Positions 54,195 through 59,960 of a stretch of DNA of 64,000 nucleotides are shown here, one piece after another (the stretch's first letter is position 1; the number at the start of each line of letters is the position of its first letter). A model generated the notes under the pieces. That model was not told where the DNA came from and searched no databases. It saw only the letters and a program-made list of their open reading frames with translations. The DNA lies in NCBI RefSeq assembly GCF_005435165.1, contig NZ_SGUC01000007.1, positions 1 to 64,000 on the forward strand, in the 5' to 3' direction. The position numbers were made by a program, and so were the translations under genes. The DNA comes from Halorubrum sp. GN11_10-6_MGM. Lineage in GTDB: Archaea; Halobacteriota; Halobacteria; Halobacteriales; Haloferacaceae.

Positions 54195-54359
54195 GTCCCC
54201 GCTCCCGCCGCGAGCGACTTAACAGCCCCGCGGCGAGGGCGCTCGGTGCGCGGCGCGAGCGGGAGGCTTCGAGTCGGTCGATCCGCGGCGCGGTACGGCG
54301 GATCACACCTGCTCTGAAAGGGAACCCTTAAGTCGAATCCGGCGGCTATGTTTCGGTAA

Positions 54360-54433
54360 CCGCCCTTAGCTCAGCCTGGTAGAGCAGTCGACTGTAGATC
54401 GACTTGTCCCCCGTTCAATTCGGGGAGGGCGGA
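54360..54433 (+). tRNA. tRNA-Tyr (anticodon GTA)
   Basis: A perfect 74-nt cloverleaf: acceptor CCGCCCT/AGGGCGG plus discriminator A, TA at 8-9, D-stem GCTC/GAGC, anticodon stem GTCGA/TCGAC with loop CTGTAGA (anticodon GTA), T-stem CCCCG/CGGGG with loop TTCAATT. No intron. CCA is not encoded. A TATA-like CCCTTAAGTCG lies about 25-30 nt upstream. The 3' 21 nt are part of a duplicated 23-bp sequence. Confidence 0.96.
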
Positions 54434-54582
54434 CTAAACCTCAACACTCGCGAGCGACAGCGAGCGAGTGTTGACCGTGCGGGACGACCGACCCGAATTG
54501 GGCAGACGAGTCGCAGCCCGCGCAGTGAGCGAAGCGAACGAGCAGGACCGTCTCGGCGAGTTCAATTCGGGGAGGGCGGACT
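54413..54582. repeat. Duplicated 3' end of tRNA-Tyr (attachment-site-like)
   Basis: The 23 bp at 54413-54435 (last 21 nt of tRNA-Tyr plus two) recur exactly at 54560-54582. The 124 bp between them hold no gene. They start with a 10-bp inverted repeat CAACACTCGC/GCGAGTGTTG (54442-54451 with 54464-54473). Such a partial tRNA copy is the mark left by a site-specific integrase, which rebuilds the tRNA at one end and leaves the old 3' end at the other. The element itself is now gone. The remaining 54583-54683 hold only a short promoter region for the nuclease gene. Confidence 0.75.
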
Positions 54583-54683
54583 CCTTGTCGGTCGGTTCGT
54601 AACGGACGCAGAGCCGAACGCTCGGCAGCGGGACCCTCGTTCGACACCCTCAACTTTTCACAGCTTCCGGCGACACGACGAGT

Positions 54684-55394
54684 ATGTGTGTTCGCCGGGC
54701 GGTCGTCGCGGTCGTTCTCGTCGCGCTAGCGGGCTGTGCCGGCGCCCCTACCGCCGACCTCGGCTCTCCCCCGTCCGACCCCGACGGCGTCGATCCGAAC
54801 GACCCGGGCGACACGGCGTGGACCGGCACGGTCGTCAGGGTCGTCGACGGCGACACGATGGAGGTGGAGTTCCCGAACGGGGAGGTCGACACCGTCAGGC
54901 TCCTCGGCGTCGACACGCCCGAGACGAGCGCCGAGTCGACGAGCCCCGACGAGTTCGAGGGGGTCCCGAACACCGACGCCGGCCGGGCGCACCTCCGGGC
55001 GTGGGGCGCCGAGGCCTCGGCGTTCGCGGAGTCGGAGCTCGCCGGCGAGGAGGTGACGGTCGTGACCGGCGGCGACCGCCGAGGGGGGTACGGCCGCCTG
55101 CTCGCGGTGCTGTACGTCGACGGCGAGGAGTTCAACGAGCGGCTGCTGACGGAGGGGTACGCCCGCCTGTACGACACCGAGTTCGCCCTGCGCGACGCGT
55201 ACGCGGCGGCCGAGTCCGAGGCGCGCGCGGGCGAGGTCGGGCTCTGGGCGTTCGATGAGTCGGACTCCTCGACCGAGGCGAGCGAGGTCGACGACGCCGA
55301 CCTCCCGCCGCTCCCTGACGACGGCGACGGCGAGGCCCGCGAGTCGGTCCCCGCATTCGGGATCGGAGCGGCCGCGATCCCTGTGTCGGCGTAA
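54684..55394 (+). CDS. Secreted nuclease lipoprotein (staphylococcal nuclease fold)
   Basis: The 236-residue protein begins with a short signal peptide and lipobox LAGC, so it is probably anchored outside the cell. The SNase domain spans about residues 45-180. It has VVDGDTMEVEF with a calcium Asp, VRLLGVDTPET with the first catalytic Arg, YGRLLAVLYVDG with the second Arg, and NERLLTEGYARLY. It would cut extracellular DNA or RNA, for defence, nutrition or biofilm turnover. The tail is acidic with hydrophobic end. Confidence 0.9.
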   Translation: MCVRRAVVAVVLVALAGCAGAPTADLGSPPSDPDGVDPNDPGDTAWTGTVVRVVDGDTMEVEFPNGEVDTVRLLGVDTPETSAESTSPDEFEGVPNTDAGRAHLRAWGAEASAFAESELAGEEVTVVTGGDRRGGYGRLLAVLYVDGEEFNERLLTEGYARLYDTEFALRDAYAAAESEARAGEVGLWAFDESDSSTEASEVDDADLPPLPDDGDGEARESVPAFGIGAAAIPVSA

Positions 55395-56186: not shown

Positions 56187-56248
56187 CTCGCAACTCCGTT
56201 TATACGCGATAGCCGAGCGGCGGCGTTGATAGTCCGTAGCCACGGCAT

Positions 56249-56330
56249 GCGGTGGCGCGTGCCTGCGAGCGGTCGCCACCGGCGGCCGCGAGTCATCACG
56301 CGCGAGGGAGTTGCGGTCGCCGGAGCAACG
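56249..56330 (+). repeat. Structured dispersed repeat, copy D (5' half only)
   Basis: Only the 5' half of the repeat is present. It begins GCGGTGGCGCGTGCC. The outer stem GCGCGTG/CACGCGC pairs 56255-56261 with 56297-56303. The inner hairpin GCGGTCGCC/GGCGGCCGC (56269-56277 with 56281-56289) keeps nine pairs, including one G-T wobble. A reduced second hairpin GTTGC/GCAAC follows (56310-56314 with 56324-56328). The conserved GGCTGGGGAGG block and 3' half are missing. It lies between convergent genes, 63 bp after the upstream stop. Confidence 0.75.
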
Positions 56331-56368
56331 CGGACGCGACGTCGACTCCGCTGACCTCCCGACGAGCG

Positions 56369-56512
56369 TTATAATCCGATGAAGTCGTCGAGTTCGACGT
56401 CGGTAACGCGGCCGCCGCAGGCCGCGCACTCTTCCACGCGCTCCGGGGCTGCCCCGCCTTCCATGTGGAGGTTACCGCACTCGGTACACACCTCGAATTC
56501 AGCGTCGAGCAT
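56369..56512 (-). CDS. Small zinc-ribbon protein, 47 aa
   Basis: The 47-residue protein has two CxxC pairs, CTECG and CAACG, 20 residues apart, forming a probable zinc ribbon, and ends VELDDFIGL. It is a common haloarchaeal mini-protein type. Start at the ATG at 56512 is supported by a TATA-like GGCACAAAACATATACGGCGG stretch (ATATAC about 25 nt upstream). It is divergent from the helicase gene across 130 bp. Confidence 0.85.
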   Translation of the reverse strand: MLDAEFEVCTECGNLHMEGGAAPERVEECAACGGRVTDVELDDFIGL

Positions 56513-56642
56513 GGGGACGGACGTTTTCCGGATCCGCCGTATATGTTTTGTGCCGGCGACGGACGACTCCGGGCGAGACCGACCGTGGAGCCGGTCGCCC
56601 GATGACGCTATCCATTTCCGCGTCGCGGCCGAAGCGACGGTG

Positions 56643-59600
56643 ATGACCGAGGACACCGGCGACGACGCCGCCGGAACCGATCACGACGACGGTCTCTCTC
56701 TGGACCGCTTCCACGAGGCGCTCGAAGCCGAGGAGCGGCCGGTCGCGACCGCGAGCGAGGTCGCCCGCCGACTCGGGACCACGCAGGCCGCGGCCCGCGA
56801 CGCGCTCGCCGCGCTCGTCGACCGCGGCGACGTGGACCGGCTCGACGTCGAGGCCGACCCCGTCGTCTTCTATCCGCGCGACTGGGGCGCGTTGGCGAGC
56901 CGCGAGCGAGTCGTCGTGTTCCCGGAGCGCCGCGAGATCGTCGTCGACCGCCCGACCCAGTACACGCGGGCGCGGCTCTCGCAGCTCGCGCACCTCGTCG
57001 ACACTACCGGCACCGAACCCGGCACGCGCGGCTATCTCTATCGCGTCAGACAGGAGGACGTGTGGGCCGCGCCGTTCGACGACGCCGACGCGCTCGTCGA
57101 CGCGCTGCGCTCCGTCCTCCCGCGCCGGTTCGAACACCTCGAGGACTGGGTCCGCGACCAGTGGCGTCGCGCGCACCGCTTCCGACTGTACACCCACGAC
57201 GACGACTACGTCGTCCTCGAAGCCGCCTCGGAGAGCCTGATGGGTAACGTCGCCGACCAGCACCTCGACGACGACCACCTCCGCGCGCCGATCTCCGACA
57301 CCGAGGCGTGGGTGAACGAGGGCGCCGTCGCCGAGATCAAGCGCGCGCTCTACGACGCCGGCTACCCGGTCGAGGACGAACGCGACCTCGAAACCGGCGA
57401 GCCCGTCGACGTCGAGCTCACGACCGACCTCCGCGACTACCAGGAGACGTGGGTCGATGAGTTCCTCGACCGCAAGGCGGGGGTGTACGTCGGGCCGCCC
57501 GGCTCCGGGAAGACCGTCGCCGCGATCGCGACGATCGCCGCCGTGGGCGGCGAGACGCTGATCTTGGTCCCCTCCCGCGAGCTGGCCGACCAGTGGCGCG
57601 AGGAGCTGCTCGACCACTCCACGGTCGACCCCGCGGACGTCGGGCTCTACCACGGCGGCACGAAGGAGATCCGTCCGGTGACGATCGCCACCTACCAGAT
57701 CGCGGGGATGGATCGCCACCGGAGTCTCTTCGACTCCCGGAAGTGGGGGCTGATCTGCTTCGACGAGTGTCTGACAGGCAACACTATTGTCGAAACACCC
57801 TCTGGACGAACGACGTTCGATGAGATTGATACAGAATATGAGTTAGAGGAGGGGTGGACGACAGATGTCGATCTCTCCGTCCGCACCTTCGATCGAGAGC
57901 GGGGCGTATACCGATTCACTCCGGTCACGGGAATTTATAAGTCGACGGCACCGGTCGAACAGATCGAAACACGTCAAGGATATCCGATAACGGCGACCGA
58001 GGGACACACTCACTTCGTTTTTGATCCCGATACGGGGCGTATTTCGGAACAAAAAGGTGTCTCGGAGGGTGAATTCGTCGTTAGACCGCAAACGGAGTCG
58101 GGAGGTTATACCGATACGGACGCGTCCAACACCGCATCTGCTGAACTGCTCGGCTGGTTCCTCGGAGACGGGCACCGAGATCGCCACGGCCACGTGAAGT
58201 TCTCGTTCGCACGGAACAAACGGGAGCAGATAGATATTCTTGAAAACCTGTGTAACCGGACCGAGATCGACTACACGGTCTTTGAGAACAGCAGGGGCGA
58301 TCTCACGTTATGGTCGAAACGCTTTGCGGACCGACTCCCCTGGGATCTCCTGTCCGGGAGTAAGGCACGGAGAGTGACTGTCCCTCCAGCAGCATACGGA
58401 TGGCATCCGAATCGAACCGGTGCGTTGTTGAGGGGGTTGTTTGACGCCGAGGGATCCGTTGATGAGAAAGGACGGATACAGTTTAACACAGTCTCAGAGC
58501 GCCTCGCAAAAGACGTCATCCTGCTTCTACAGCATCTCGGCATTCCGTCAAGTCATCTTCAGATAGACAGAGAGGACTCCCACAGCGATCAGCACCGCGT
58601 ACTGGTGGCATCCCGATACGGTGTGTTGTTCGCTGAGAAAGTCGGATTCAGGCTACAACACAAATCGGAGCGAATCTCTCTCGGCGAGACTCCTACGACG
58701 GGAGTTCCTGTTGGAACATACCTAGAACAAATCAAAGACGACGTGGAACTCTCGAACGAACAGATCGCGGACATGATCGGTGTCGCTCGACAGACGATCG
58801 GAGATGTCATTCGTGGAGACAACCGTCTGGGCCAACGACACCTGAGTTCTCTCGCCCAGGGGCTTCGAAGGTACGCACAGACGGATCCGATCTCAGTTGA
58901 TGCGATGCGAGAGGATAATGGAGTCACGTACGCAGAGATCGGCGACGAACTAAATGTCTCGACCAGTCATGCGTATACCTTGGTCTCCCGAGCGGATGAA
59001 AGAACGGAGAAAGTGATCGACGAACGCGAACAACGCTGTCGTATGAAGGCAGCACAGCACGCAGATCGGTTAGCGAGGCTCGAAGATTTACAGATTGCCG
59101 AGGTCACCTCGATTACTCAAAAAGGTGTTGAGACGGTTTATGACTTCGAGACGCGAGATCATACGTTCGTTGCGGATGGTTATCTAACGCATAACTGTCA
59201 TCACATCACCGCCCCCGTCTTTTCCCGGACGGCCGAGCTCCAGAGCAAACACCGCCTCGGCCTCTCGGCGACGCCGGTCAGCGAGACCGGCAGCGAGGAG
59301 GAGATCTACACCCTCATCGGCCAACCCATCGGCGCCGACTGGGACGCGCTCTTCGAGGCCGGCTTCGTCCAAGAGCCCGAGGTCGAGATCCGGTACGTCC
59401 CGTGGCGCGACGAGCTGGCGCAAAGCGAGTACGCCGCCGCGGACGGTCGGGAGCGTCGGCGCGCCGCGGCCGAGAACCCGGCGAAGGTCGAGGAGATACG
59501 CTATCTGCTCGCGGCCCATCGCGACAAGAAGGCGCTCGTCTTCGTCGAGTACCTCGACCACGGGCGAGCGATCGCCGACGCGCTCGACGCCCCGTTCATC

Positions 59601-59960
59601 AGCGGCGAGACGCCGCACCGCGAGCGCGCCGAACTGTTCCGTCGGTTCCGTGCTGACGACGACGACGCCGAGGACGCCGACCGGGCCCGCGACGACGCCC
59701 TCGACGTCCTCGTCGTCTCGCGGGTCGGCGACGAGGGGATCGACCTCCCGAACGCCGAGCTCGCGGTCGTCGCGAGCGGCCTCGGCGGGTCCCGCCGGCA
59801 GGGCTCCCAGCGCGCGGGGCGGACGATGCGCCCCTCCGGCTCCGCGCTCGTCTACGTCCTCGCGACCCGCGGGTCGAGCGAGGAGGAGTTCGCGCAGCGA
59901 CAGATGCGTCACCTCGGTCGGAAGGGCGTCCGCGTCCGGGAGACGAACGTCGCGGAGTGA
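56643..59960 (+). CDS. XPB-like superfamily 2 helicase interrupted by an intein
   Basis: The 1105-residue precursor yields a helicase of about 629 residues after splicing. The N-terminal part has a winged-helix segment (TASEVARRLGTTQAAARDAL) and a domain rich in Asp/Arg. The helicase core has Walker A VGPPGSGKTVAAIA, LILVPSRELADQWREELL and a DECHH box. The intein interrupts between the Glu and Cys of DECHH. Motifs IV-VI follow (LIFVEYLDHGRAIADALD, VVSRVGDEGIDLPNAELAVV, GSQRAGRTMRPSG). It is the second XPB-like protein of the window. Start is the ATG at 56643. Confidence 0.9.
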   Translation: MTEDTGDDAAGTDHDDGLSLDRFHEALEAEERPVATASEVARRLGTTQAAARDALAALVDRGDVDRLDVEADPVVFYPRDWGALASRERVVVFPERREIVVDRPTQYTRARLSQLAHLVDTTGTEPGTRGYLYRVRQEDVWAAPFDDADALVDALRSVLPRRFEHLEDWVRDQWRRAHRFRLYTHDDDYVVLEAASESLMGNVADQHLDDDHLRAPISDTEAWVNEGAVAEIKRALYDAGYPVEDERDLETGEPVDVELTTDLRDYQETWVDEFLDRKAGVYVGPPGSGKTVAAIATIAAVGGETLILVPSRELADQWREELLDHSTVDPADVGLYHGGTKEIRPVTIATYQIAGMDRHRSLFDSRKWGLICFDECLTGNTIVETPSGRTTFDEIDTEYELEEGWTTDVDLSVRTFDRERGVYRFTPVTGIYKSTAPVEQIETRQGYPITATEGHTHFVFDPDTGRISEQKGVSEGEFVVRPQTESGGYTDTDASNTASAELLGWFLGDGHRDRHGHVKFSFARNKREQIDILENLCNRTEIDYTVFENSRGDLTLWSKRFADRLPWDLLSGSKARRVTVPPAAYGWHPNRTGALLRGLFDAEGSVDEKGRIQFNTVSERLAKDVILLLQHLGIPSSHLQIDREDSHSDQHRVLVASRYGVLFAEKVGFRLQHKSERISLGETPTTGVPVGTYLEQIKDDVELSNEQIADMIGVARQTIGDVIRGDNRLGQRHLSSLAQGLRRYAQTDPISVDAMREDNGVTYAEIGDELNVSTSHAYTLVSRADERTEKVIDEREQRCRMKAAQHADRLARLEDLQIAEVTSITQKGVETVYDFETRDHTFVADGYLTHNCHHITAPVFSRTAELQSKHRLGLSATPVSETGSEEEIYTLIGQPIGADWDALFEAGFVQEPEVEIRYVPWRDELAQSEYAAADGRERRRAAAENPAKVEEIRYLLAAHRDKKALVFVEYLDHGRAIADALDAPFISGETPHRERAELFRRFRADDDDAEDADRARDDALDVLVVSRVGDEGIDLPNAELAVVASGLGGSRRQGSQRAGRTMRPSGSALVYVLATRGSSEEEFAQRQMRHLGRKGVRVRETNVAE
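57768..59195 (+). mobile_element. Intein with LAGLIDADG endonuclease and HTH-like inserts
   Basis: A 476-residue intein starts at Cys (CLTGNTIVETPSG) and ends YLTHN, followed by Cys+1 of the extein; block B is GHTHFVFD. The homing endonuclease has two LAGLIDADG-like motifs, LLGWFLGDG (about residue 127) and LLRGLFDAEG (about 220). Two further segments look like helix-turn-helix motifs: NEQIADMIGVARQTIGDVI (about 331) and VTYAEIGDELNVSTSHAYTL (about 385). The element is clearly less GC-rich than its host gene, as expected for horizontal spread. Confidence 0.95.

Follow-up and report, generated by a model that had tools for sequence, protein, structure and literature searches.

A tRNA gene whose 3′ end stands a second time a short distance downstream raises the question of how the second copy came to be there. 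Such a case is found in the window analysed here, that is, the whole stretch of 64,000 nucleotides (positions 1 to 64,000 of contig NZ_SGUC01000007.1 of Halorubrum sp. GN11_10-6_MGM). The first-pass annotation had described an exact 23-bp duplication of the tRNA-Tyr 3′ end, and had explained it either as an attL/attR pair left after the loss of an integrated element or as a very small non-autonomous element using a host integrase.

The duplicated tRNA-Tyr end and its spacer

The tRNA-Tyr (GTA) gene is located at 54360–54434 on the + strand (ARAGORN; Rfam RF00005, 60.3 bits). A repeat search placed the 23-mer GTTCAATTCGGGGAGGGCGGACT at 54413–54435 and 54560–54582, on the + strand in both cases and 100% identical; the two copies are 147 bp apart from start to start, with a 124-bp spacer between them, and the 23-mer occurs exactly twice in the window when both strands are counted. 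Because ARAGORN puts the tRNA gene at the above position, the duplicated block corresponds to the T-loop, the 3′ strand of the T-stem, the 3′ strand of the acceptor stem, and one additional base. A chance repeat is ruled out, since the expectation for a 23-mer repeat within 200 bp is 3e-12 for the given base composition, and the duplication thus proved to be real far beyond chance. The gene at 54360–54434 is probably both a functional tRNA gene and the anchor of an array, its T-loop/3′ end being a putative attachment core (copy 1). The second copy (54560–54582), whose counterparts accompany the tRNA in relatives, may be the start of a new attachment core.

The spacer was found to carry no credible gene, as had been claimed: the open reading frames overlapping it are antisense readings of the tRNA, and antisense coding was rejected on the ground that the indels among the relatives are not multiples of three. 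Two inverted repeats exist there. One is the 10-bp repeat noticed at the outset (CAACACTCGC/GCGAGTGTTG), which is present as an 11-bp stem (TCAACACTCGC/GCGAGTGTTGA) of a 5′ hairpin module at 54441–54474 (+ strand); this module appears in both the RNA and DNA folds, and its stem is kept in the relatives while the sequence is changed. Another, which had been missed, is formed by 54492–54503 (CCCGAATTGGGC, + strand) and 54560–54571, namely the start of copy 2. This left arm is the inverse complement of the T-loop and the T-stem 3′ strand of the adjacent tRNA, as seen from the inverted repeat, the fold, and a tRNA-specific complementarity throughout the family described below; of the two structural features, it is the more telling, and the 10-bp repeat is the lesser. 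Between the left arm and copy 2 lies a conserved interior hairpin (54504–54559, + strand), which has the form AGTCRC ... YGTCT with tandem GA and a GNA-type apical hairpin, and which is supported by a covariance model (R1) and covariation. Compared with 200 dinucleotide shuffles, the 148-nt unit gave a better fold than 199 of them, whether it was folded as RNA (z = −3.4) or as a DNA single strand (z = −2.7).

An Rfam scan of 54200–54700 at E ≤ 1 returned the tRNA and a sub-threshold Y RNA-like match, and nothing else; RtT was not among the matches. Apart from the tRNA, no known RNA family in Rfam accounts for the locus at this threshold, and six related loci gave tRNAs and one unrelated sot0042 match. 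Two other features were seen further downstream in the window. An intergenic palindromic stretch (GGTGGCGCGTGCCTGCGAGCGG ... CACGCGCGAGGGA) at 56220–56350 is like parts, in relatives, of the dispersed repeats described below, and a DEAD/DEAH-type helicase reading frame at 56379–59960 apparently contains an intein (CLTGNTIVETPSG ... FVADGYLTHNC), as read from the translation only.

A family of hairpin units behind haloarchaeal tRNA genes

As judged from the sequences, the 23-bp duplication represents a single member of a family of 90–160 bp hairpin units located directly behind many haloarchaeal tRNA genes. Two types were found. The type A units begin with a 5′ hairpin module, which is followed in order by an arm that is complementary to the T-loop/T-stem of their own tRNA, the AGTCRC-hairpin-YGTCT interior, and a copy of their own tRNA 3′ end. 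This architecture is common to the spacers behind tRNA-Phe, Arg, Ser, and Gly, and both arms change with the tRNA; in families in which the tRNA reads GTTCAAATC, the copy also reads GTTCAAATC. The type B units have no inverted arm, and carry instead a degenerate tRNA portion (anticodon arm, variable loop, and 5′ T-stem) and two hairpins. The spacing of the units has a median of 118 bp (5–95%, 89–164).

The R1 model was built from 21 type A units. It matches 54489–54581 with 107.8 bits and an E-value of 3e-21, the unit itself being among the 21 training sequences. The covariation score of the R1 arms was 0.328 as compared with 0.110 after shuffling (0 of 500 shuffles reached it), and slid controls gave at most 0.079. 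In a wider set of 86 units, the complementarity of the left arm to its own T-stem was 0.64, as compared with 0.34 ± 0.025 after the copies were swapped. The R1 E-values are rough, and the set of matches is shaped in part by a model that these very units served to build, so that a sample collected by a pattern search for the repeat alone (36 loci, 41 spacers) was used as an independent check. There, the left arm was found in 23 of the 41 spacers (14 of 820 when shuffled) and the core motif in 36 of the 41, and tRNA-Tyr preceded all 36 arrays. Among the remaining 18 spacers, 12 were type B by a loose pattern, and one (L269) was apparently misscored, as judged by eye.

At E ≤ 0.001, R1 matches were found in 139 of the 145 Halobacteria genomes sampled, and the remainder of the phylum, covered by about 163 genomes, yielded none; in a 197-genome sample of the phylum, all 32 positive genomes belong to the order of the window. 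Two genomes (G128 and G087) carry 27 and 33 matches, respectively, behind some twenty isotypes. A tRNA 3′ end on the same strand stands within 700 nt upstream of all 27 matches in the former and of 27 of the 30 examined in the latter (54 of 57). When all the fetched loci are considered, a sample biased to matches, the chain from tRNA to unit was seen behind 82 of 110 tRNAs, covering about 30 isotypes. A search of 59 related genomes showed that, in many Halorubrum species and in other families, between one and four copies of the tRNA-Tyr 3′ end stand behind this tRNA; the 36 repeat-only loci span Halorubrum, Halobacterium, Haloarcula, Natronococcus, Halorhabdus, Natronomonas, and other genera. 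In the genome of the window itself, copies with at most 4 mismatches within 200 nt are found behind Tyr, Lys-TTT, Gly-GCC, Pro-TGG, Met, Ser-TGA, His, Arg-CCT, and Thr-CGT tRNAs, and tRNA-Phe has a copy at 7.2 kb. About ten unusual tRNA genes, several of them low-scoring, stand together on one contig (L229, G000:C49:34154–36532), recalling a provirus-borne tRNA array.

These distributions bear directly on the first of the two explanations offered earlier. A strain-specific scar is rejected, because the relatives share the same architecture, and a single attL/attR pair left by one element lost here does not agree with the fact that dozens of species and genera show this architecture behind tRNA-Tyr and that it is found behind about 30 isotypes. 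Likewise, a random local deletion is not expected to leave an interior that is conserved and an inverted arm that matches the tRNA.

Another possibility is that the unit is a structured trailer RNA, which would be transcribed downstream of the tRNA and set free as a small RNA that serves in regulation or processing, and in which the left arm would sequester the T-loop copy; it would then be the haloarchaeal counterpart of RtT. Compensatory changes in the units, the RNA fold (z = −3.4), and the T-rich sequence behind many copies are in keeping with it, and it is a serious rival because of the parallel with the RtT copies of E. coli tyrTV, which share the layout of a tRNA-end copy with an upstream complement. 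On the tRNA-sense strand, G·T also outnumbered A·C, by 34:14 in the alignment fitted to the model and by 25:15, which is not significant, in an independent count; taken as a decisive test between RNA and DNA, this ratio is suggestive only. Against the trailer RNA stand three facts: in several congeners the orthologous tRNA-Tyr has no unit behind it, or one that is truncated or decayed, with just the 5′ module or a broken copy retained in some; the arrays decay away from the tRNA; and about a quarter or fewer of the tRNAs of the window's own genome have a copy. We regard an RNA function as rather unlikely, and it and mobility are not mutually exclusive.

Two-hairpin interiors (HP1 + GGAAGTCGC..GACCGTCTTCC) were also observed away from tRNA copies, at three loci of the window's own genome (L061, L062, L063) and at four others (L039, L040, L041, L046), where they sit inside larger dispersed repeats (...GTGGGACTCGAAGGGGCAGCC...).

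Array polarity and integrase-bearing elements at the same sites

The arrays contain up to five units. Among the 28 arrays with two or more copies, divergence is greater in the last copy than in the first in 14, smaller in none, and equal in 14 (P = 1e-4); six of the 14 polar arrays rest on distal copies with 5–6 mismatches, which are possibly due to chance, and the ratio becomes 8:0 when such copies are removed. Gene conversion, in which the tRNA corrects the copy closest to it, could also produce this polarity. In Halorubrum xinjiangense (L017), an extra type B unit lies between tRNA-Tyr and the type A unit, while the type A unit stands alone at the corresponding loci of two other genomes (L004 and L005). 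This is a precise difference of one unit. Because the genomes were sampled one per species, insertions are seen between species only.

Similarity across tRNAs was also evident. In one genome, the interiors behind Lys-TTT and Arg-CCG are 92% identical, and the same applies in another genome to the interiors behind Asp and Arg-TCT; in each case the arms match the respective tRNA. Near-identical copies at non-homologous loci, together with the occupied and less-occupied pair provided by L017 and L004/L005, are features of non-autonomous elements. At tRNA-Asp of five congeneric genomes of another genus, the 5′ modules are joined to interiors in at least six different ways, as read by eye.

Slippage and gene conversion alone, without any dedicated mobility, might be proposed as the source of these arrays: tandem duplications of the tRNA 3′ flank would be kept by homologous recombination and by template-switch correction of the quasi-palindrome. 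Template switching would indeed hold both arms to a match with the tRNA, and identical adjacent units do exist (L020 and L021). Nevertheless, this proposal accounts neither for the interiors common to unrelated tRNAs, nor for the module shuffling at tRNA-Asp, nor for the class-wide conservation of AGTCRC/YGTCT, and we consider it highly doubtful.

Two observations concern the sequences beyond the arrays. In L017, positions 1268–1455, directly beyond the tRNA-Tyr array, match Rfam sot0042 (an IS1341-type tnpB-associated RNA) with 116.5 bits; this match is separate from the units, and a TnpB omega-RNA was rejected as their identity. In Halorubrum tebenquichense (G020; L002, positions 1–1500), the similarity to the window stops at the second copy, beyond which an HNH-type reading frame and that of a small membrane protein are found; it is possible that an attachment site was provided by the second copy in this relative.

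Elements carrying integrase genes were found at these same sites. One is present in the window's own genome, where tRNA-Phe is separated from its three copies by 7.2 kb that include a tyrosine integrase gene (PF00589). The comparison of relatives for insertions between the copies, proposed in the first-pass annotation, was fruitful: in two genomes (G005 and G002), about 20 kb separate tRNA-Tyr from the array, with a tyrosine-integrase gene at the array end. The G005 integrase shares 45% identity with the enzyme of the tRNA-Phe element; its N-terminal SAM-like domain passes the Pfam threshold, and its catalytic domain scores 24.5 bits, just under the curated cutoff of 27.1. In a third genome (G183), an integrase gene adjoins the T-arm/3′ end of tRNA-Tyr. 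Because of these insertions and the G183 integrase, it can be said that the spacer is not the same everywhere and that elements with the core do exist. Members of the integrase family occur in 101 of the 119 genomes of the window's family, and adjoin the T-arm cores of Phe, Tyr, Pro, Ile, and Arg tRNAs.

Thus, one part of the attL/attR explanation holds, namely that the repeat is a tRNA attachment-site core of the kind used by tyrosine integrases and carried by integrated elements. One might then regard each unit as a relic attR, the remainder of an integrative element after loss of its interior, and the copies as tombstones of large elements, given that large integrase-bearing elements integrate at exactly these T-loop/3′-end cores. 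The length distribution given above is narrow, unlike that of random deletions, and the interiors are conserved across tRNAs and genera. Moreover, at loci that have both an element and hairpin units, most of the latter are located past the attR of the element (L153, L165, L167, L168, and L178), so they are residents of the site. The relic is therefore an improbable source of the units.

Most of the integrative elements examined have their own attachment site with a normal 5′ T-stem, not an inverted arm. The exceptions are L152 and L155, in which a two-hairpin segment interrupts the T-arm of the element. The element in L153 has an uninterrupted T-arm, and its integrase is 87% identical to that of L152. 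When L152 (about 1390–1490) is compared with L153 (about 2570–2620), 60–70 nt forming two hairpins are seen between the 5′ T-stem and the T-loop of the attachment site in L152 only, as if the hairpin pair itself could insert there.

The first-pass annotation had also suggested looking for the core in haloviruses or plasmids, and a viral or plasmid source was rejected. The 21-mer core and the unit-specific junction pattern had no match in the viral contigs, and no phage match was found. An interior 17-mer matched five viral contigs, which were judged by eye to be unrelated coding DNA, and the only plasmid match covered no more than 31 bases of the tRNA end.

A mini-element reading and its known counterparts

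The second of the earlier explanations, a very small non-autonomous element using an integrase, comes close to the reading that is best supported. We propose, with our judgement evenly poised, that the unit is a haloarchaeal tRNA-linked mini-element added at the T-loop by integrase-type recombination. It would be about 150 bp long, gene-free, and essentially a bare attachment site. New units would enter at the T-loop/3′ end of the tRNA through site-specific recombination of the tyrosine-integrase kind, and the enzyme, which we infer to act in trans, would be either an integrase encoded by integrative elements resident in the genome or a recombinase of the host. With each addition, the working tRNA would receive its 3′ end from the incoming unit, and the end thus displaced would become the next copy, so that the arrays would grow outward from the tRNA while the old copies decay. 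The T-loop copies, which are in opposite orientation about 55–65 nt apart, may pair in the tRNA-sense single strand and thereby rebuild a duplex T-loop core. Because the paired copies resemble the folded attP of CTXphi, the substrate may presumably be a folded single strand; two opposed core sites able to pair in one strand are indeed present, and they fit such a substrate, as does the G·T excess (34:14 in the model-fitted alignment; 25:15, not significant, in the independent count).

Several features count against the mini-element. Movement to a new isotype needs both arms rewritten, a step that lies beyond plain integrase recombination; gene conversion and template switching would have to be added, and this addition is a guess. 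The type B units without an inverted arm, and the normal 5′ T-stem of most integrative elements, also speak against it. A more far-reaching proposal is that gene-free mini-elements of class-wide distribution use many tRNA T-loops via a folded single-stranded site, their arms being rewritten for each host tRNA and their modules exchanged at alternately oriented T-loop sites, and that the E. coli RtT is a bacterial relic of a like element. This is possible, and we hold it tentatively.

The haloarchaeal units are without description in the literature searched, the coverage of which excluded the early E. coli tyrT work and most subscription papers, and Rfam 15 has no family for the unit sequences scanned; within these bounds, the family is previously uncatalogued. 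Up to 33 units per genome stand at the most-used integration sites of archaeal chromosomes. If mobile, they would be among the smallest integrative elements known, and would account for the repeated duplication of tRNA 3′ ends in haloarchaea. If they act as RNA, they would represent a class of RNA, abundant and so far unstudied, that is linked to the transcription of tRNAs.

Four known systems invite comparison. In CTXphi, two opposed dif-like sites about 90 bp apart give a forked hairpin that is recombined with dif by XerC, and the integration regenerates one functional site, so that arrays can form (PMC3089051). Its attP(+) is similar to the present unit in having opposed core sites tens of nucleotides apart that pair in single-stranded DNA (PMC3089051). 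However, CTXphi is a phage that uses XerCD at dif, whereas the haloarchaeal unit is gene-free, its sites are tRNA T-loops, and its recombinase is one that we infer. The dif (pdif) modules of Acinetobacter plasmids are likewise short modules between opposed recombination sites, shuffled between replicons (PMC6449649, PMC13141974). Those modules are plasmid-borne, carry genes, and are bounded by Xer sites, whereas the haloarchaeal units are chromosomal, gene-free, and located at tRNAs, and the sites flanking them are tRNA T-loop sequences, not Xer sites.

The attL/attR pairs of tRNA-integrated elements, which are served by archaeal tyrosine integrases (PMC8371274), share with the units the tRNA 3′-end repeat and the sites, since the same sites are used by integrases in the relatives; partial tRNA repeats have been described in Haloquadratum (PMC3119063). 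The direct repeat of the tRNA 3′ end starts at the presumed crossover region, as in such pairs. In contrast to their element-sized insert, what is found between the repeats is a conserved hairpin unit of 90–160 bp, mostly with an inverted T-loop arm; in the window, the 124-bp spacer is such a conserved family unit and holds no element or remnants of one.

Lastly, RtT (the rttR/tyrT 178-bp repeat, RF00391) is like the haloarchaeal unit in being tandem behind tRNA-Tyr and in having a tRNA 3′-end copy, an upstream complement, and hairpins between them. The same Rfam scan found four RtT copies at E. coli tyrTV, and the last part of each is a 19-nt copy of the 3′ end of tRNA-Tyr. An 8–10 nt complement of the start of this copy lies about 90 nt upstream, and for three of the four units it was never matched in 300 shuffles of the spacer. 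The differences are that the haloarchaeal copy begins at the start of the T-loop and the RtT copy at its end, that the interior motif differs, and that the haloarchaeal units cover about 30 isotypes and the whole archaeal class, whereas RtT occurs at E. coli tRNA-Tyr. Because the RtT model does not match it, the haloarchaeal unit is considered RtT-like in layout and not a member of that family. Under either the mobility or the RNA reading, the parallel with RtT makes an old puzzle, the tRNA-end repeats at tyrT, testable in genetically tractable haloarchaea.
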